The notes under the pieces: generated by a model
Databases searched by the model: none
Seen by the model: only the letters and a program-made list of their open reading frames with translations
Told to the model about the DNA's origin: nothing
In this document: in pieces, positions 3,448-10,556 of the stretch
Layout: every line of letters starts with the position of its first letter
Numbering within the stretch: the first letter of the stretch is position 1
Assembly: GCA_902810075.1 (NCBI GenBank)
Contig: LR778135.1
Span: 1,178,001-1,242,000, forward strand
Source: Ruminococcaceae bacterium BL-6
Lineage (GTDB): Bacteria > Bacillota > Clostridia > Oscillospirales > Acutalibacteraceae
Length of the DNA: 64,000 nucleotides
Reading direction: 5' to 3'
Made by a program: the position numbers and the translations under genes

Positions 3448-5718
3448 ATGAGGATACCGGAGACTTCCGTACCGAACGAAACGATCCTGAAACAGAATTT
3501 TTCAAAAATGAATCCGCGGCAGCAGGAGGCTATCAGATACCAGGATGGCCCCCTGTTGATTTTGGCGGGTGCCGGCAGCGGGAAAACGACCGTGCTGGTC
3601 AACCGGATCGCCAGCCTGATCTGTCGGGAAAAAGCCTGCAAACCCTGGCAGGTCATGGCGATTACGTTTACGAACAAGGCGGCGGGCGAGCTGAAGGACA
3701 GGCTCGCGGCGATGCTGGGCGAGCAGGGGAATGAGGTATGGGCCTCCACGTTCCACTCGGCCTGCTCGCGCATTCTGCGGCGCAACGGGGACCGGCTCGG
3801 TTACACGTCCCATTTCACCATTTACGATACCGACGATTCGCGCCGGCTGATGAAGGAATGCCAGAAGCTGCTGAACATAGAAGAGAAGGCTTTTCCGCCG
3901 AAATCCATTCTGGCGGAGATCGGGCACGCGAAGGATTCGCTGATCGGCCCGGACGAGTTTGCGAACCAGACCGGGGGCGATTTCCGGCTGGAGCAGATCG
4001 CGAAAGCCTACCGTCTGTATCAGAGCCGCATGAAAGAGGCCGATGCGATGGATTTCGACGACCTGATCTGCAACGCGGTGCGGCTTTTCGAGGAAAACCC
4101 CGATGTGCTGGATTATTACCAGAACCGGATCCGGTATATCATGGTGGATGAATATCAGGATACGAACCACGCGCAGTATGTTTTTGTCTCCCTGCTCGCA
4201 AAAAAGGAGAGAAACCTCTGCGTGGTGGGCGACGACGACCAGAGCATCTATAAATTCCGCGGCGCGACGATCGAAAACATCCTGAGCTTTGAAAAATCCT
4301 TTCCCGGCGCCAAGGTGATCCGGCTGGAACAGAATTACCGTTCCACGAAGACGATCCTGAACGCCGCCAACGCGGTGATCGCGAACAACCAGCAGAGGAA
4401 GGGGAAGACGCTTTGGACGGACAACCCCGAGGGGGAGAAGATTTCGTTCCACACGGCTTACAGCGAGCAGGATGAGGCGAATTTCATCTCGACGCATATT
4501 CTGGAGGAGGTGGCGAAGGGCCGCCGCTATTCGGATTTTGCCGTGTTGTACCGCATGAACTCGCAGTCGAACGTGCTGGAAAAGGTGTTCGTCAAATCCG
4601 GGATCCCTTACCGGATCATCGGCGGCGTGCGCTTTTACGACCGCAAGGAGATCCGCGACATGCTCGCCTACCTGAGCGTCGTCAACAACCCCTCCGACGA
4701 GATCCGCCTGCGCCGGATCATCAACCAGCCCAAGCGCTCCATCGGGGACAAAACCATCGCCCAGGCGACCGAGATCGCCCGCACGCTGGGCGAGCCGCTG
4801 TTCGACGTCATCTGCCACGCGGATGAATTTGAGTCGCTCCGGCGGACATCCCCGAAGCTTCTGGCGTTTGCCGGGCTGATCCGGGAAATGATGGATGTGG
4901 CGAACGACCAGTCGAAGTCGCTGAACGATCTGTATCAGTTTATCCTGAAAAAAACGAATTATATCGACTCGCTGAAAAATGAGAACGAGGATTCGCAGGA
5001 GCGCGTGGAGAACATCAACGAGCTGGCGTCCAGCCTGATCAAGTATGAGGAGGAGAACGAGGATGCCAGCCTTTACGGATTCCTTGAGGAGGTCTCCCTT
5101 TTTACCGACATCGACAACTTCGACGCCGAGGCGGACCGCGTGGTGCTGATGACGATGCACTCCGCGAAGGGGCTGGAGTTCCCGGTCGTTTTTCTGCCCG
5201 GCATGGAAGAGGGAATCTTCCCGGGGCTGCAGGCCATCTACAACCCATCCGAAGTGGAGGAGGAGCGCCGGCTCGCCTATGTAGCCATCACCAGGGCCAA
5301 AGAAAAGCTCTTCCTCAGCAACGCGGAAAGCCGCATGATCTTCGGCTCCACCTCGCGCAACAAGCCGTCGCGCTTTCTGAGCGAAATCCCGGATGAGCTT
5401 TTGGTACATACGCGTTCCCGCGCGTGGAAAAAGCCCCAGCCCGGCACCGAGCTCCCCACGCCCGCCTGCGAGATCCGCGCGGTTTCCATCAGCGCGGCGC
5501 GCAACTTCGGGCCCGTCGGCTTTCCCAAAAAGCCGACGAAAGAGGTGTTCCATCCCGGCGACAGCGTGGAGCACAAAACGTTTGGAACCGGCATGATCCT
5601 TTCCGTTTCCCCCATGGGGAACGATACGCTTCTCGAAATTGCGTTCGACCGGGTGGGCACCAAAAAGCTGATGTCCAATTTTGCCCGGCTGAAAAAGACC
5701 GAAGCAAAATCGTGCTGA
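3448..5718 (+). CDS. pcrA: UvrD/Rep-type 3'-5' DNA helicase PcrA
   Basis: ATP-dependent helicase of superfamily 1A that unwinds DNA during repair and plasmid or phage replication and clears RecA from DNA. The 756-residue protein has the Q motif (MNPRQQEAI, 21-29), Walker A (GAGSGKTT, 41-48), motif II VDEYQDTNH at about 230, GDDDQSIYKFRGA, and motifs V-VI (MTMHSAKGLEFPVV and VAITRAKEKL). The tail ends in a PcrA-type segment (HKTFGTGMIL). Length and motif order match the family. I chose ATG 3448, 8 bp after AGGAG; the in-frame GTG at 3439 overlaps the ribosome-binding site. It has its own promoter, and the interrupted gene starts 82 bp downstream. Confidence 0.95.
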   Translation: MRIPETSVPNETILKQNFSKMNPRQQEAIRYQDGPLLILAGAGSGKTTVLVNRIASLICREKACKPWQVMAITFTNKAAGELKDRLAAMLGEQGNEVWASTFHSACSRILRRNGDRLGYTSHFTIYDTDDSRRLMKECQKLLNIEEKAFPPKSILAEIGHAKDSLIGPDEFANQTGGDFRLEQIAKAYRLYQSRMKEADAMDFDDLICNAVRLFEENPDVLDYYQNRIRYIMVDEYQDTNHAQYVFVSLLAKKERNLCVVGDDDQSIYKFRGATIENILSFEKSFPGAKVIRLEQNYRSTKTILNAANAVIANNQQRKGKTLWTDNPEGEKISFHTAYSEQDEANFISTHILEEVAKGRRYSDFAVLYRMNSQSNVLEKVFVKSGIPYRIIGGVRFYDRKEIRDMLAYLSVVNNPSDEIRLRRIINQPKRSIGDKTIAQATEIARTLGEPLFDVICHADEFESLRRTSPKLLAFAGLIREMMDVANDQSKSLNDLYQFILKKTNYIDSLKNENEDSQERVENINELASSLIKYEEENEDASLYGFLEEVSLFTDIDNFDAEADRVVLMTMHSAKGLEFPVVFLPGMEEGIFPGLQAIYNPSEVEEERRLAYVAITRAKEKLFLSNAESRMIFGSTSRNKPSRFLSEIPDELLVHTRSRAWKKPQPGTELPTPACEIRAVSISAARNFGPVGFPKKPTKEVFHPGDSVEHKTFGTGMILSVSPMGNDTLLEIAFDRVGTKKLMSNFARLKKTEAKSC

Positions 5719-5731
5719 CGATTATAATGTA

Positions 5732-5758
5732 ACAAAAATAATTTTAAACCATAAAATA
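5732..5758 (+). promoter_or_regulatory. Possible sigma-K-like promoter of the interrupted gene
   Basis: AC at 5732-5733, a 16-bp gap, and CATAAAATA at 5750-5758 fit the mother-cell sigma-K pattern (AC, N16-17, CATANNNTA). The region is AT-rich, so a chance match is quite possible. The start codon at 5801 follows AGGAGGA. Confidence 0.3.
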
Positions 5759-5800
5759 TTAAAGAGAACATGGAAATCAACCTGTTAGGAGGAACATTTT

Positions 5801-5989
5801 ATGGCCCAAGATTTTGATACCGCGACGGAAGAGCGCGGCGCAGGATCCTTTAAAGAAGCAGTATGTATCGACGCGATGCGTATTTATGACTCCTGCTGTG
5901 AAAGGGAATGTTCCGGCTGTCAGAAAAAGGGCGGAAAAAAGATTTCCAGGCGGAACTCGTTCGGCCTGGCGCCTTTCTCTTTGCTGTAA
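5801..5989 (+). CDS. Interrupted conserved cysteine-rich protein, 5' part
   Basis: The ORF starts at ATG 5801 behind a strong AGGAGGA and reads MAQDFDTATEERGAG, then FKEAVCIDAMRIYDSCC at about residues 17-33. From codon 34 it enters the inserted element and ends at a stop at 5989 after 62 residues, 29 of them encoded by the element. The missing remainder lies at 8412-9119. Joining codon 33 (TGT, 5897-5899) to GAT at 8412 gives YDSCCDKDCLEDLRV and one continuous 268-codon ORF. I know no function for this family. The cysteine pairs and strong conservation suggest a structural protein. A spore role is only an inference from the promoter and the skin-like arrangement. Confidence 0.75.
   Translation: MAQDFDTATEERGAGSFKEAVCIDAMRIYDSCCERECSGCQKKGGKKISRRNSFGLAPFSLL
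5877..5925 (+). other. Predicted attL of the serine-recombinase element
   Basis: Host-gene sequence up to 5899 meets element sequence from 5902, with the presumed crossover dinucleotide GA at 5900-5901. The element-side arm contains TGTTCCGGCTGTCA (5909-5922), which mirrors the arm in attR. Confidence 0.6.
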
Positions 5990-7392
5990 ACGATCTTTTC
6001 GATCAGCGACTTCAGCAGCAGGTTTTTTCCATGTGCATCCATCGCGGCATAAAGCTCTTCCAGAGATTCGGGGAAGGGCTTTTCGGCTTCGTGGCTTTCC
6101 GGTCCGCCGGGCGAATTCCGCCCGGCGGATTCCAGTTTCTCCAGCTTTTTCCGAAGAAGCTCCCGGCGGGCCAGAAAGATGTCGGGGGTGTAAACGCCTT
6201 GCTCCAGCAGGTCATGCAGGCGTTCCATCTGACGGAGAAGGTTTTGCCTGCCGGCTTCCAGATTTTCCCGCCCGCTTTCCGCCTCTTTTTCGGGGAGCGC
6301 GGAAATCTGCAGTTCCAGGGGGCCGAGCTGCTCTTTCACAGCCTTCAGCACGGCGTCCTCCACGGCGTGCAGAGGGCTTGCGGTCATGCAGCCGCGCTTC
6401 TGGCAGATCAGGTAGGCCTCCCCGTCCCTGAGAGGCCGCCGCTGCATCGGGGCGCCGCAATTTTTGCAGAACACGAGCCCGGCCAGCGGATTTTCCAGCG
6501 GCCCGGCGTTTGCGGGCGGGCGTATTTTCCGCCCGATCCTTTCCTGGGTGCGTCCGAACAGGCTTTCCGGGATGATGGGCGGGTGGATTCCGTCGGCGAC
6601 GATCCACTTTTCCCGCGGCGCCGGGACGGTTTTGATCGTGCGGGCTTCCCCGGTGCCCCTGCGCGCGCGCATTTTCCGGTTCCAGACGATTTTTCCGGCA
6701 TAGACGGGGTTGCGAAGGATCTTCATGACGGACGTCCTCCCGAACTGTTCGGCGCGGCGCGGCTTCGCGCCCATCGCGTTCAGCGTATCGGCGATGCGCT
6801 GGCAGCCGAATCCCCGCTCGGTGTAAAGGGAGAAGATCAGGCGCACCAGCCCGGCTTCATCCTCCTTCACCGCAAGGGTCGGCCGTTTGCCCCGATAAGC
6901 CCGCTCGTAGCCGTAGGGCGGGTTTGCGACGTATCCGCCGTCCTCGATCGTGCGGCGGATCCCGCGCTGCATCCGGCGCTTGATAGCCTTGAGCTCCTGC
7001 CTTGCCAGAAACGATTCGAATTCGGAATAGGTTTCGTCCAGCTCGTCGTTCAGGTCGTACAGCTTGCGCGGGGTGATGATCCTCGTCCCGGAGCTTTTCA
7101 GGACCTCCAATATTCTGCCCTGGTCGCTCATGGCCCCGCGCCCGAGCCGGTCGATGTCCATGCAGAGGATCGCGTCGTACGCGCCGCGTCCAACTGCTTC
7201 CAGCAGCTTCAGCATTTCGGGCCGGGCGCTCAGGCTTTCGCCGGAAGCGACCTCTTCATAAACGTCGGCGACGGCAAGGCCGTTCCGTTCGGCAAATTCC
7301 GTCAGCGTTTCGCGGTGGCGCTTCAGCGTTTCTTCCTTGCTGAGCTCCTCCGCGCGGGATTTGCGCAGATACATGGCAACCTTCAATTTCAT
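5920..7392 (-). CDS. Large serine recombinase
   Basis: Site-specific integrase/excisionase of the serine family, 490 residues. The N-terminal resolvase domain has the catalytic serine in YLRKSR (Ser12) and the conserved DIDRLGRG at about 79-86. The recombinase domain follows at about 150-290 (NPPYGYER, RIADTLNAMGAKPR, ILRNPVYAGK). A zinc ribbon has Cys309, Cys312, Cys330 and Cys335, and a coiled coil lies at about 370-425. All parts of a working enzyme appear present. Its stop lies 20 bp inside the left boundary, so it reads toward attL. ATG 7392 was chosen over GTG 7395; both are weakly spaced from AGG. This enzyme class usually needs a directionality factor for excision. Confidence 0.93.
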   Translation of the reverse strand: MKLKVAMYLRKSRAEELSKEETLKRHRETLTEFAERNGLAVADVYEEVASGESLSARPEMLKLLEAVGRGAYDAILCMDIDRLGRGAMSDQGRILEVLKSSGTRIITPRKLYDLNDELDETYSEFESFLARQELKAIKRRMQRGIRRTIEDGGYVANPPYGYERAYRGKRPTLAVKEDEAGLVRLIFSLYTERGFGCQRIADTLNAMGAKPRRAEQFGRTSVMKILRNPVYAGKIVWNRKMRARRGTGEARTIKTVPAPREKWIVADGIHPPIIPESLFGRTQERIGRKIRPPANAGPLENPLAGLVFCKNCGAPMQRRPLRDGEAYLICQKRGCMTASPLHAVEDAVLKAVKEQLGPLELQISALPEKEAESGRENLEAGRQNLLRQMERLHDLLEQGVYTPDIFLARRELLRKKLEKLESAGRNSPGGPESHEAEKPFPESLEELYAAMDAHGKNLLLKSLIEKIVYSKEKGARPNEFRLEIFFPPFF

Positions 7393-7481
7393 CACCTGGT
7401 TTCCGTTTGTTTAGGCAGGAAAAAACGCGGACGCATAGGACAATCGCCGCCCTTCATATCCTGTCATCGGGGGCGGTCAAG

Positions 7482-7652
7482 ATGCGGGACAGGGGAGAGC
7501 CGGCCGTTTTTGTCCGGACCAGGCCGGGTTCCCCGCGGGAAATCGAAGGGAACCGCGAGCGGCTCCGGCTCGCGTGCGAAAGCGCGGCGGGCGCTCTGGC
7601 GGGGCGCGGCGCCGAGGTGCGGATCTGCTGGGAAGACGGGAAGAAGGGCTGA
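7482..7652 (+). CDS. Possible small ORF, divergent from the recombinase
   Basis: A 56-codon ORF (MRDRGEPAVFVRTRPG...) preceded by GGGGGCGG. The middle part, RERLRLACESAAGALAGRGAEV, looks helical and faintly resembles the start of a resolvase domain, but there is no catalytic serine. It could be a remnant, a small partner of the recombinase, or chance. Confidence 0.25.
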   Translation: MRDRGEPAVFVRTRPGSPREIEGNRERLRLACESAAGALAGRGAEVRICWEDGKKG

Positions 7653-7721
7653 AGCGCCGCGAAAAAAATCGCCCGGTTTCATCCTATGCGGGGCTGGCCG
7701 GTTTCATGGCAGAAACAAAGG

Positions 7722-7765
7722 AAAACCCGCGAAGCCCGGCTCGATCCCGGGACTTCGCGGGTTTT
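7722..7765. terminator. Bidirectional terminator inside the element
   Basis: A 13-bp stem (AAAACCCGCGAAG / CTTCGCGGGTTTT) with an extra inner CCCGG/CCGGG pairing. It lies 18 bp beyond the end of the 70-residue ORF on the reverse strand. Confidence 0.8.
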
Positions 7766-7783
7766 ATCCCGCAGCTTTCTTTT

Positions 7784-7996
7784 TTATTCGCGCGCGCATA
7801 AAAGCCGGTCGATCAGATTTTCAAGGATTTTCAAATCCCTGTCGTTCAGATCATCCAACAGGGCGATAATATCTTTTAATGCGTTTGCGCTTCTGCTGTT
7901 GCATCTGGTTCTGCTGCTTTCGCTGTCTCCGCCCGAACCGCATCCGGAGCTGCTGCCCGAAACCGCGCTGTCGTTGCTGTAACGGTATAAGCCCAT
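7784..7996 (-). CDS. Small Ser/Gly/Cys-rich protein of the element (70 aa)
   Basis: The ORF has a good ribosome-binding site (AAAGGAGAAAAAAT before ATG). Residues 1-38 are rich in Ser, Gly and Cys (GSSSGCGSGGDS). Residues 39-70 look like an amphipathic helical pair (ALKDIIALLDDLNDRDLKILEN). I do not recognise the family. Small size, position upstream of the recombinase on the same strand and a private terminator make it a candidate accessory or directionality factor, though this is inference. Confidence 0.6.
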   Translation of the reverse strand: MGLYRYSNDSAVSGSSSGCGSGGDSESSRTRCNSRSANALKDIIALLDDLNDRDLKILENLIDRLLCARE

Positions 7997-8065
7997 ATTT
8001 TTTCTCCTTTCGCTAAGAGACTGTTATATCATATGCAAATTTCTTTCGACATGGTATTTTTCGTT

Positions 8066-8119
8066 CAAGGCATAAAAAATCCGCCCTTTTCGAAAGAAGG
8101 GCGGATTTTTTATGCCTTG
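8066..8119. terminator. Long terminator hairpin overlapping the 3' end of the 61-aa ORF
   Basis: Two 23-nt arms (8066-8088 and 8097-8119) pair perfectly, with a loop of 8 nt. The core CCGCCCTT/AAGGGCGG is flanked by A6 and T6, so it can terminate in both directions. The right arm contains the last codons and stop of the reverse-strand ORF at 8110-8295. Confidence 0.8.
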
Positions 8120-8295
8120 GGGATCCTTTGCACGACCCTGTCGTAAAATTCCCCGTAGGACTGGCAGCCCCGCAGAAGGCGCAGCTGCTCCTCATCCGGC
8201 AGCGACAGGAAAAAAGCCTTTATTTTCTGATCCTCTTCCGAAAGCGCCGCGGGGAAGGGGAAATCCCGGTATGGGGTATAATCCGTCTCGATCAC
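8110..8295 (-). CDS. Small acidic protein of the element (61 aa)
   Basis: An ORF with a strong AGGAGG that overlaps its GTG start, which is unusually close; the true start may differ. The sequence (DYTPYRDFPFPAALSEEDQ, then LSLPDEEQLRLLRGC and YGEFYDRVVQRI) looks like a small helical protein. Family unknown. It is the first gene on the reverse strand of the element, nearest attR. Confidence 0.5.
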   Translation of the reverse strand: MIETDYTPYRDFPFPAALSEEDQKIKAFFLSLPDEEQLRLLRGCQSYGEFYDRVVQRIPKA

Positions 8296-8388
8296 CTCCT
8301 TCAGGCAATTCCGCTTTTGATTGCGGGCCCGGATTTGTTCCTTCCCATAGTTTATGAAATATTCCGGGCATTATCCGGAAAAGGGAAG

Positions 8389-8437
8389 TTTGATATCCCG
8401 ATCACTTTCGCGATAAAGACTGTCTGGAAGACCTTCG
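8389..8437 (+). other. Predicted attR of the serine-recombinase element
   Basis: Element sequence up to 8411 meets host-gene sequence from 8414, with GA at 8412-8413. In reverse complement the element-side arm contains TGATCGGGATATCA, matching the attL arm TGTTCCGGCTGTCA at 10 of 14 positions and at equal distance from the GA. Confidence 0.6.
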
Positions 8438-9119
8438 TGTATACTTTACGCCGGATAAGCAGCAGCTTGTAAACGACGCGTCGAGCGTAAGAATCAGGGA
8501 TGTCGACGTCATTACCGTTTACCTCAATTTGGAACCGGTCTCTTTCAATAAAGGCTTTTATTCGGTGGATATGACTTTCTTCTTCGACGTCTGCGTGGAT
8601 ATTTTCTGCGGACCGATGCTCGGGGCGACTACGATCAGAGGCGTCGCCATCTTCAACAAGAAAGTGATTCTTTACGGCAGCGAGGGGAACGTCAAGGTAT
8701 TCAGCTCCGACGGAAACACGGATGATCTTGACGCACAGTCGTGGAGCTGCCGCGCGATGCCCAAGGCGACGGTGCAGATTGCCGAGCCGGTCGGGCTCAC
8801 CGCACAGATCTGCGAATGCCCGCCCCATCCCTGCGATGGCTGCTGCCGTATTCCGGACTGCATCTGCAAACGGTACGGCAACGATTTTCAGGTAGACGGG
8901 GTTCAGCGCGCGGTCTATGTCACGATCGGACTCTTCACCATCGTGCAGATTGTGCGCAACGTGCAGCTTCTGATTCCGGCTTACGATTTCTGCATTCCGG
9001 AAAAAGAGTGCGTCGCGACTTCAGACGATCCCTGCGAGCTGTTCCGGCGCATCGAATTCCCGACCGACGAATTTTTCCCCCCGAAGGTAGGGGAATGCGG
9101 CTGCGAAAAGCCGAGATAA
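8412..9119 (+). CDS. Interrupted conserved cysteine-rich protein, 3' part
   Basis: 235 codons that continue the protein begun at 5801. The frame is open from just after a stop at 8391 and reads DKDCLEDLRVYFTPDKQQ, then VDMTFFFDVCVDIF, KKVILYGSEGNVKVFSS, a cysteine cluster (ICECPPHPCDGCCRIPDCIC) and YVTIGLFTIVQIVRNVQLL. No ATG with a ribosome-binding site lies at its 5' end; the first plausible starts are a TTG at 8529 or an internal ATG. It is therefore probably silent until the element leaves. A terminator follows at 9178. Many cysteines suggest cross-linking or metal binding. Function unknown. Confidence 0.75.
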   Translation, partial: DKDCLEDLRVYFTPDKQQLVNDASSVRIRDVDVITVYLNLEPVSFNKGFYSVDMTFFFDVCVDIFCGPMLGATTIRGVAIFNKKVILYGSEGNVKVFSSDGNTDDLDAQSWSCRAMPKATVQIAEPVGLTAQICECPPHPCDGCCRIPDCICKRYGNDFQVDGVQRAVYVTIGLFTIVQIVRNVQLLIPAYDFCIPEKECVATSDDPCELFRRIEFPTDEFFPPKVGECGCEKPR

Positions 9120-9177
9120 CCGTTCGTCCGGGCCGGAAACGGAATGTGCAGCGAGAAAACAGCAGGCAAATGGCCTT

Positions 9178-9220
9178 TCAGGGCCGGCGTTTCCGAACGC
9201 CGGCCCTGAACCGCTTTTTC
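9178..9220 (+). terminator. Terminator of the interrupted gene
   Basis: A 14-bp GC-rich stem (TCAGGGCCGGCGTT / AACGCCGGCCCTGA), a TCCG loop and a CTTTTTC tail. Confidence 0.8.
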
Positions 9221-9314
9221 CGCTGTGCCTCCTGCGCTCTCCGAAAGTCCGAGCAGGCTGCCTGACCTAAAACATATTAAACATATATAAAAAATAAAAA
9301 TATTTAAAAACCTA

Positions 9315-9343
9315 TTGACAGATTCAAAAAGCATTGGTATAAT
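9315..9343 (+). promoter_or_regulatory. Strong vegetative promoter of cysK
   Basis: Consensus TTGACA (9315-9320) and TATAAT (9338-9343) with 17-bp spacing. It would produce a leader of about 215 nt. Confidence 0.85.
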
Positions 9344-9349
9344 AAAGCC

Positions 9350-9512
9350 ATACTAAACAGATATGAATTATTATAAAAATATCATAAAAGGAAGTGGGAA
9401 CGATAGATGCGAAAAACACCCCGCATGGGTGCGGACGATGTCCCGCTTGCCGGGGAGATCCTTTTGTTTGAACCATCCCGAAAGGTTGTTTTTATGGTTC
9501 AAACAGGGCGGA
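9350..9512 (+). promoter_or_regulatory. Structured cysK leader, candidate cis-regulatory RNA (copy 2)
   Basis: Contains a CCGCATGGGTGCGG hairpin, CCCGCTTGCCGGGG, and an 11-bp stem GTTTGAACCAT/ATGGTTCAAAC (about 9469-9506) whose arm carries CCCGAAAGG. The same blocks occur in the leader at 2656-2795, where the long stem differs by partly compensating changes. There is no T-box motif and no recognised SAM motif. cysK control by sulfur or cysteine status is plausible but not shown. Confidence 0.45.
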
Positions 9513-9564
9513 AAGAAAACTCTGAAACCCAAATCCAAATACAATGAAAAAGGAGTAATGTTGT

Positions 9565-10497
9565 ATGGCGAAAATTTATAAAAGTCTGACGGATCTGATC
9601 GGGAACACCCCTCTGTTGGAGCTCACGAATTTCGAGGCAAAGCACGGCCTGAAGGCGACCATTCTCGGGAAGCTGGAATACTTCAATCCCGCAGGCAGCG
9701 TAAAGGACAGAATCGCCAAGGCGATGATCGACGACGCCGAAGCGAAGGGAATCCTGAAAAAGGGCTCCGTCATTATTGAGCCAACCAGCGGCAACACCGG
9801 AATCGGCCTTGCTTCCGTCGCGGCTGCAAGGGGATACCGCATCATTCTCACCATGCCGGAGACGATGAGCGTGGAAAGAAGGAACCTGCTGAAGGCCTAC
9901 GGCGCGGAGGTCGTTTTGACCGAGGGGGCCAAGGGCATGAAAGGCGCGATCGCGAAGGCCGACGAACTTTCGAAGGAAATTCCCAACTCCTATATTCCCG
10001 GCCAGTTTGTCAACCCGGCCAACCCCGAAGCGCATAAGGCCACCACGGGCCCCGAAATCTGGAAGGACACCGACGGCAAGGTCGATTTCTTCATCGCGGG
10101 CATCGGCACCGGCGGAACCATCACCGGTGCGGGCCAGTATCTGAAGAGCCAGAACCCGAACGTCAAGGTGATCGCGGTGGAGCCGGCGACTTCTCCCGTC
10201 CTGACGAAAGGCACGCCCGGCCCGCATAAGATCCAGGGCATCGGCGCCGGCTTCGTCCCGGATGTCCTCGACACCAAGGTTTACGACGAAGTGATCGACG
10301 TGAAAAATGAGGACGCCTTTGAAAAGGGCAGGGAGATTTCCAGGACCGAAGGGCTTCTGGTCGGTATCTCCTCCGGCGCGGCCATCTGGGCGGCGACCGA
10401 GCTTGCGAAACGCCCGGAAAACGAGGGGAAGGTCATTGTGGCCCTGCTTCCGGATACCGGGGAGCGCTACCTTTCCACCCCGCTGTTTTCCGACTGA
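9565..10497 (+). CDS. cysK: Cysteine synthase A (O-acetylserine sulfhydrylase)
   Basis: Joins sulfide to O-acetylserine to make L-cysteine with pyridoxal phosphate. The 310-residue length is typical. The PLP lysine lies in [10 protein letters not shown] (Lys47); TSGNTG binds the cofactor phosphate and substrate, and [10 protein letters not shown] (about 178-187) is the glycine-rich phosphate loop. SSGAAIWAA lies near the C-terminus. The start follows AAAAAGGAG. The gene is monocistronic, with a consensus promoter, a long structured leader and a terminator. Confidence 0.95.
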
Positions 10498-10556
10498 TCC
10501 AGTCAAATCCCATCTTTCCATATTCTAAAACACCTCCTAAATTTATCTCGGAAGAG

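Follow-up and report, generated by a model that had tools for sequence, protein, structure and literature searches.

This report concerns a split gene, and the element that splits it, in Ruminococcaceae bacterium BL-6. Both lie in a stretch of 64,000 nucleotides (hereafter the window) that spans positions 1,178,001-1,242,000 of a complete, single-contig genome of 3.44 Mb. The two exons are 2,512 bp apart, the interruption falls at codon 34, and deletion of 5900-8411 leaves a single frame of 268 residues plus a stop codon. We show herein that precise recombination at the GA dinucleotide common to both borders would restore the gene, and we infer from the sequence that the element is excised in this manner. 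A previous sequence-only reading of this DNA had described the split open reading frame (ORF), the GA shared by the borders and a joined product of 268 codons, all of which are borne out by the coordinates and the frame. As the gene stands, the 5' ORF runs on into the element as far as 5989 and specifies 62 amino acids (aa). The 3' exon has no start codon at its own beginning; the earliest in-frame start inside it is a TTG at 8529, use of which would omit the first 39 codons of this exon in the window. The complete genome holds no second copy of the split gene.

The element encodes a recombinase of 491 aa in which the Resolvase, Recombinase and Zn_ribbon_recom domains all exceed the Pfam cut-offs, so that the complete-looking large serine recombinase of the sequence-only reading is confirmed. 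ORF A and two further small ORFs are additions to the inventory given there. No phage structural gene was found among the recombinase and the three small ORFs in comparisons with Pfam and/or PHROGs, and neither ORF A nor ORF B had a match worth naming in PHROGs. A protein search with the homologue of ORF A from Caproiciproducens faecalis (G028) returned seven proteins, every named source of which was Caproiciproducens. An Rfam scan of 5000-10500 gave no match. The features are listed in Table 1; on the evidence of the ORFs, the neighbours of the split gene are a UvrD-type helicase gene and a cysteine-synthase-type gene.

Table 1. Positions of the split gene, its intervening element and associated motifs in the window
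Feature	Position	Strand	Remarks
sigmaK-type promoter motif of the split gene, AAC-N16-CATAAAATA	5731-5758	+	43 nucleotides before the start codon
5' exon, codons 1-33	5801-5899	+	from the ORF and the joined frame; ends ...MRIYDSCC
GA core, left copy (attL)	5900-5901	+	common to both borders
Intervening element, 2,512 bp	5900-8411 (equally 5902-8413)	.	from the joined frame and the borders
Large serine recombinase, 491 aa	5920-7395	-	PF00239, PF07508, PF13408
sigmaE-type promoter motif, GCATA-N17-CATA	7433-7458	+	upstream of ORF A; includes GGACAA
ORF A, 56 aa, candidate recombination directionality factor	7482-7652	+	conserved; divergent from the recombinase
70-aa ORF	7784-7996	-	sub-threshold match to PF18430 DBD_HTH (21.1 bits; cut-off 25)
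GC-rich hairpin with A/T runs at the stem foot	8067-8120	.	two-way terminator by eye; missed by the terminator scan
ORF B, 61 aa	8110-8295	-	kept in three other same-site elements (G028, G177, G409)
3' exon, codons 34-268 plus stop (235 codons)	8412-9119	+	reopens as DKDCLEDLRVY
GA core, right copy (attR)	8412-8413	+	common to both borders

The gene and its interruptions in related genomes

When the uninterrupted 272-aa protein of a genome of the same genus (G002) was used as the query, matches were obtained in 291 of 398 family genomes, and most homologues among the matches listed were single open frames. The gene is therefore commonly intact in relatives, as had been expected from the sequence alone, and no homologue that naturally ends near codon 33, the outcome named beforehand as contrary to an excisable element, was seen. 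Within this one genus, the gene is intact in G002 and split in G000, in Clostridium sporosphaeroides DSM 1294 (G001) and in Faecalispora jeddahensis JCD (G003).

Fifty genomes were chosen from the best-matching rows for a closer look, and the following counts of split genes are accordingly lower bounds. In at least 26 family genomes, that of the window included, the 3' part starts at codon 28-34. The 5' part is found on the same contig in 14 of them (the window and 13 others), and all 14 inserts hold a related serine recombinase, those of the 13 others being 44-56% identical to that of the window. The other 12 also look split, with the 5' part on another contig in nine and not found in three; some of the nine matches are weak (E values up to 0.007), and some of the 12 cases may be assembly breaks. 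On single contigs the inserts range from about 1.8 kb (G387) to 40.5 kb (G152), the small forms spanning 1.8-3.6 kb. A related recombinase at the same codon also accompanies an insert of 11.5 kb. In the 40.5-kb insert, genes for tail and head proteins and for a DNA polymerase were identified among 10 ORFs from two stretches, and the recombinase family of the window thus also serves a prophage. The form found in the window resembles either a phage integration module stripped down to the machinery of excision or an ancestral unit that phages took up.

The gene is also split at a second place, near codon 155, in L075 (G031), L076 (G015) and L077 (G049), with inserts of 13.5, 7.7 and 3.8 kb, respectively. 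The serine recombinases of these inserts are just 24-29% identical to that of the window; by eye, the borders have CAGG or GTGGAG in common, and joining restores the frame. G250 and G352 resemble these codon-155 splits, with the halves on two contigs. In G037 (L078, L079) the gene occurs in three pieces (codons ~12-38, 32-73 and 67-268) across about 31 kb; the middle piece is inverted, two related recombinases lie nearby, and the second border has TACATTGATGTA in common. In G353, a 5' piece covering query positions 17-74 and a 3' piece starting at 34 are found on contigs C12 and C22, possibly as a partial duplicate or a mixed assembly.

One recombinase family, its sites and its core

An alignment of 16 same-site recombinases (A1) was scanned against GTDB genomes. 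Relatives are encoded in 173 stretches, of which the best 80 loci were kept; the patterns derived from A1 bias this set towards the family of the window. In 65 of the 80 loci, at most 1.4 kb separates the recombinase from a half of the split gene, in two more the distance is 4-6 kb, and a locus initially classed as another site (L114) also has the 5' half of the gene. A large 3' half is present in 38 of the 80 loci; the remaining ones were assigned by a 5' part of 28-30 residues at E < 0.05, which is a weaker assignment. Of the 13 other loci, six adjoin the 5' part of sigK, that is, the skin site. SigK is the best family in five of these (E 1.9e-73 to 8.9e-66), the short sixth has an E value of 1.8e-13, and all six sigK parts end at position 143-146 of TIGR02846. 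In the recombinase tree, the six sigK-site enzymes fall within a set of ten rows with support of 100/99. The root of this tree is a midpoint root and the recombinase of Caproicibacter fermentans (G237) sits near it without support, so the order in which the sites were acquired is left unsaid; two rows (L097, L124) were labelled by hand. The closest PDB relative of the window's recombinase by sequence is YokA of SPbeta (E 6.2e-40), which we take to be SprA. This nearest solved structure is also a point of likeness to SPbeta itself, an element in spsM that has YokA as its recombinase together with YotN, presumably SprB.

In the window genome, sigK is one open frame of 233 aa located elsewhere, and the element is accordingly not a skin element proper. 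In the relatives G034, G122, G103, G213, G387 and G285 (L161-L165), sigK looks split. That of G285 is apparently in three pieces (1-67, 60-117 and 109-214), which may mean two elements within one sigK gene.

Well-supported branches of the tree imply at least 13 switches in the orientation of the recombinase relative to the gene. L149 and L150 are close relatives of opposite orientation; their recombinase-proximal arms are alike, and the adjacent core is TC or GA. Whole elements inserted either way at one codon, for example L149/L150 and L081/L082, occur in spite of the non-palindromic GA core. With a strictly polar core, both orientations at one codon would require some change.

Both borders were read by script in 12 same-site elements; all 12 have a GA core, and the joined frame reads C/S-D-K-D-C. 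GA is also found at each border in G003 and G152, where the halves are on separate pieces. The core follows the host codon: it is GA where codon 34 is Asp, and in G237 (which is also L099) TC stands at both borders and codon 34 is Ser (TCA) instead of Asp; L082 likewise has TC at both borders and Ser at that codon. Among the 80 recombinase loci, 41 left borders were read (40 GA and one TC, that of L099) and 36 right borders (33 GA, the TC of L082, and AG in L081 and L152, the AG readings resting on one border each). The phage-type attachment site (attP) reconstructed from 12 elements has, when pooled, inverted-repeat arms around the central dinucleotide, with a dyad centred on GA (106 of 180 positions complementary; moving the centre to any of 16 other points from -4 to +4 nucleotides gave 36-63). 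With shuffled partners the complementary fraction averaged 0.42 and reached at most 0.57, compared with 0.59 observed, but this is a soft control, since the arms of related elements resemble each other. Taken singly, the window shows 8 of 15 complementary positions, and the two Caproiciproducens galactitolivorans genomes (G258, G368) just 5 of 15.

A profile of ORF A, with seeds drawn entirely from the recombinase clade of the window (support 98/95), recovered it in all 17 rows of that clade and, at E < 1e-3, in none of the other clades examined. The suggestion that the minimal elements lack ORF A has to be weakened: on visual inspection, G285 and G103 have a comparable small ORF whose end coincides with the junction, but these two were not recovered by the profile at E < 1e-3. 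In L061 (~4480-4543) and L063, from Clostridium sporosphaeroides and F. jeddahensis, the recombinase frame can be followed upstream through a YLRKSR motif and offers none of the starts ATG, GTG and TTG on the way; a conserved ATC downstream of a strong ribosome site may act as a rare start.

Selection, promoters and the proposed switch

Between interrupted genomes, the 3' exon gives ratios of non-synonymous to synonymous substitution rates (dN/dS) of 0.02-0.10 in 11 of 12 pairs, the remaining pair being saturated. Intact genes are similar (0.024-0.152 in seven of nine pairs, two saturated); the recombinase gives 0.08-0.26 in 10 of 12 pairs, two saturated. The 3' exon is not translatable as a whole without excision, and this purifying selection speaks for a product that would be made after rejoining. 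In addition, the distances of the recombinase and of the 3' exon correlate across 39 loci (Mantel r 0.76, with none of 9,999 permutations as high), and the correlation is 0.71 among pairs with a host distance above 0.1. To judge by these distances, the 3' exon is co-inherited with the recombinase.

A different reading is that the split is tolerated: each half would be translated by itself, with an internal start for the 3' part, and the two would work as fragments. The TTG at 8529 would supply such an in-frame start, and 3' fragments of 228-232 aa (P0003, P0052, P0140) stand in databases as proteins; these resemble unexcised 3' remnants annotated as whole. However, in the window this internal start would omit 39 codons of the 3' exon, the first 36 of which are conserved across species, with 94 synonymous and 28 non-synonymous differences in 11 pairs. 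The 5' exon has 18 synonymous and no non-synonymous codon differences in six comparable pairs; in both counts the pairs share genomes and are not independent. Moreover, a scan of 8000-8700 for sites of the sigma-70 type found none on the gene strand (and one on the other strand, where 0.6 are expected), and most homologues among the matches listed are single frames. We regard translation as working fragments as very improbable.

The promoter motifs offer a link to sporulation. The pattern mAC-N15-17-CATAnn[A/T]T[A/G] is found upstream of 31 of 42 distinct homologues, starting 30-100 nucleotides before the chosen start, whereas the 42 upstream regions, Markov-shuffled 200 times, gave 0.075 matches on average and never more than 1. 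In C. difficile, the excerpts available of one study describe sigmaE and sigmaK promoters as sharing the -10 element and differing at -35 (ATA versus AC; PMC3789822), and for that reason the host-gene motif is read as sigmaK-like. Upstream of ORF A, [GT][AC]ATA-N14-18-CATA, a pattern read as sigmaE-like, occurs in 10 of 17 elements (500 shuffles: mean 0.23, maximum 2), GGACAA in nine of 17 (mean 0.48, maximum 3) and an assumed SpoIIID consensus in eight of 17 (mean 0.52, maximum 4). A sigmaK-type promoter on the recombinase gene was also considered and rejected: no mAC-N15-17-CATA site lies in the 330 nucleotides upstream of 17 recombinase ORFs, a check that skipped three site-2 recombinases and in which start codons are uncertain. 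A second exact match to the sigmaK-type pattern lies at 891-918 of the window, on the minus strand.

Among the 398 family genomes, the gene and SpoIVA tend to occur together: 274 have both, 17 the gene only, 66 SpoIVA only and 41 neither (Fisher p 3e-14, uncorrected for kinship); three of the 17 gene-only genomes are at least 90% complete. The host protein, of about 270 aa, is Cys-rich and, in a structure model, beta-rich; at a guess, it is probably a late spore-envelope protein.

We consider it quite probable that the window holds a compact, minimal skin-type element that is excised in the mother cell and so restores a late sporulation gene. The same kind of element, minimal and phage-free, had been proposed from the sequence alone, and the proposal is upheld by the uninterrupted homologues, the sigK-sited relatives of the recombinase, its similarity to YokA and the selection on the 3' exon. 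That the host gene would be expressed solely in its rejoined form, as also suggested there, is a hypothesis. In sporulation, RNA polymerase of the sigmaE type would turn on ORF A in the mother cell. ORF A, a candidate excision or directionality factor, would act as a small excision-directing partner. Together with the serine recombinase, it would recombine attL with attR, so that a circle of 2.5 kb is released and the gene becomes whole; transcription of the gene by sigmaK would follow late in the mother cell. Because the mother cell lyses, the split form would persist in the germ line.

Several observations weigh against this proposal. The sigmaK pattern is missing from 11 of the 42 upstream regions, those of all four 1.8-1.9-kb elements included, and the sigmaE pattern from seven of the 17 regions upstream of ORF A. 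Genome-wide, the sigmaK pattern has 18 matches, versus 11 for a reversed control; it is not rare alone, and the idea that the window's match is significant by itself is weak. GA is not the core of every element, TC and AG borders having been seen. No relative of known function was found for ORF A in PHROGs or in the protein search, and the host protein matches neither a Pfam family nor a PDB sequence and gave no confident fold. The 66 SpoIVA-bearing family genomes without a match to the gene indicate that it is not a core sporulation gene, and rows of one genus are not independent. Finally, the joined protein was compared with 5.8 billion proteins, and among the best 120 of 2,883 matches there is no full-length copy of more than 77% identity; near-identical to the window allele, among the matches listed, are remnants only, namely P0128 (196 aa, 20 member sequences) and P0129. 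The lack of a rejoined allele among these matches would be expected if excision were limited to dying mother cells, and just as much if there were none.

The same material might describe a small mobile element that homes to a dispensable gene and can be lost precisely, with rare, random excision and no developmental control. Presence and absence of the insert within one genus, the related recombinases at the same codon in the 11.5-kb and the phage-gene-bearing 40.5-kb inserts, and the lack of the gene in the 66 SpoIVA-positive genomes would all suit such an element. It would leave unaccounted for the purifying selection, in many species, on a 3' exon whose full translation requires rejoining, the long co-inheritance of recombinase and 3' exon, and the pair of sigmaE- and sigmaK-type promoters. 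We therefore judge it unlikely. That excision occurs outside sporulation, on another cue such as stress or phage-like induction, seems very improbable. Relatives of the recombinase are indeed found in phage records (the nearest, THSA-485A, at 41.8% identity) and with phage genes in G152, but the promoter motifs, the bias towards spore-formers and the location of related recombinases in sigK all speak for mother-cell excision.

Comparison with known intervening elements

Developmental DNA rearrangement in spore-formers comprises, in the available excerpts of the literature, a handful of elements, mostly prophage-like (PMC10747680, PMC5595907), which are known in sigK, spsM, gerE and yabG, with spoVFB named too. 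The other papers cited in this section are likewise represented by excerpts. For Ruminococcaceae, Oscillospiraceae, Caproiciproducens, Faecalispora and Acutalibacteraceae, no report of an intervening element was found in the open-licence literature, where the gene had no name to serve as a query. The mechanism is of a known kind; what is new is the target gene and the minimal form, in a wide group.

Like the skin elements in sigK of Bacillus subtilis, C. difficile and others, the element of the window has a serine recombinase, related to theirs, and splits what would be a mother-cell gene. It differs in that its target is not sigK, its length is 2.5 kb and no phage gene was found in it. The skin element of C. 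difficile has a short directionality factor, CD1234, of 53 aa (PMC10747680), under sigmaE and SpoIIID (PMC5025042), and ORF A resembles it in being short and in having a sigmaE-type motif. In Bacillus cereus, gin interrupts gerE, and sporulation-specific rejoining has been shown (PMC5595907). Gin, too, is a non-phage element with a large serine recombinase and a small partner (GirC, GirX), a role for which ORF A is the candidate here, but it measures 28.6 kb and has three recombinases, whereas the small forms of the present type measure 1.8-3.6 kb and occur in many genera. The spsM gene is rejoined in sporulation (PMC4191935), and here the intervening SPbeta is, unlike the window's element, a full active prophage in Bacillus. 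The intervening elements vfbin in spoVFB and yin in yabG, the latter with a putative directionality factor, are in sporulation genes, as the element of the window would be; in contrast to it they are prophage-like and lie in other genes, and yin is reported to be unique to one strain (PMC10747680).

The present element thus offers a miniature with a candidate circuit that can be read from the sequence, a sigmaE-type promoter on the candidate excision factor and a sigmaK-type promoter on the target. Its type recurs in many Oscillospiraceae and Acutalibacteraceae genomes and is related to the skin recombinases. Whether such interruptions are parasites, locks or both becomes directly testable. 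A broader proposal, which we put forward tentatively and on balance lean against, is that of a DNA-level, intron-like switch repeatedly acquired or kept in one gene across a whole order of gut and environmental spore-formers: at codon 34 (one recombinase family, both orientations, the core following the host codon), at about codon 155 (an unrelated family) and at further places. The interruption itself might then be selected as a lock that silences the gene until the terminal mother cell, and the small form might be a 1.8-3.6-kb excision cassette domesticated from phage integration modules, with a polarity that flips often. A recombinase cassette of about 2 kb with a mapped core could also serve as a tool. 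For annotation, it matters that split genes are listed as truncated hypothetical proteins; in Clostridium merdae, the 3' remnant is listed in databases as a separate protein of 232 aa.

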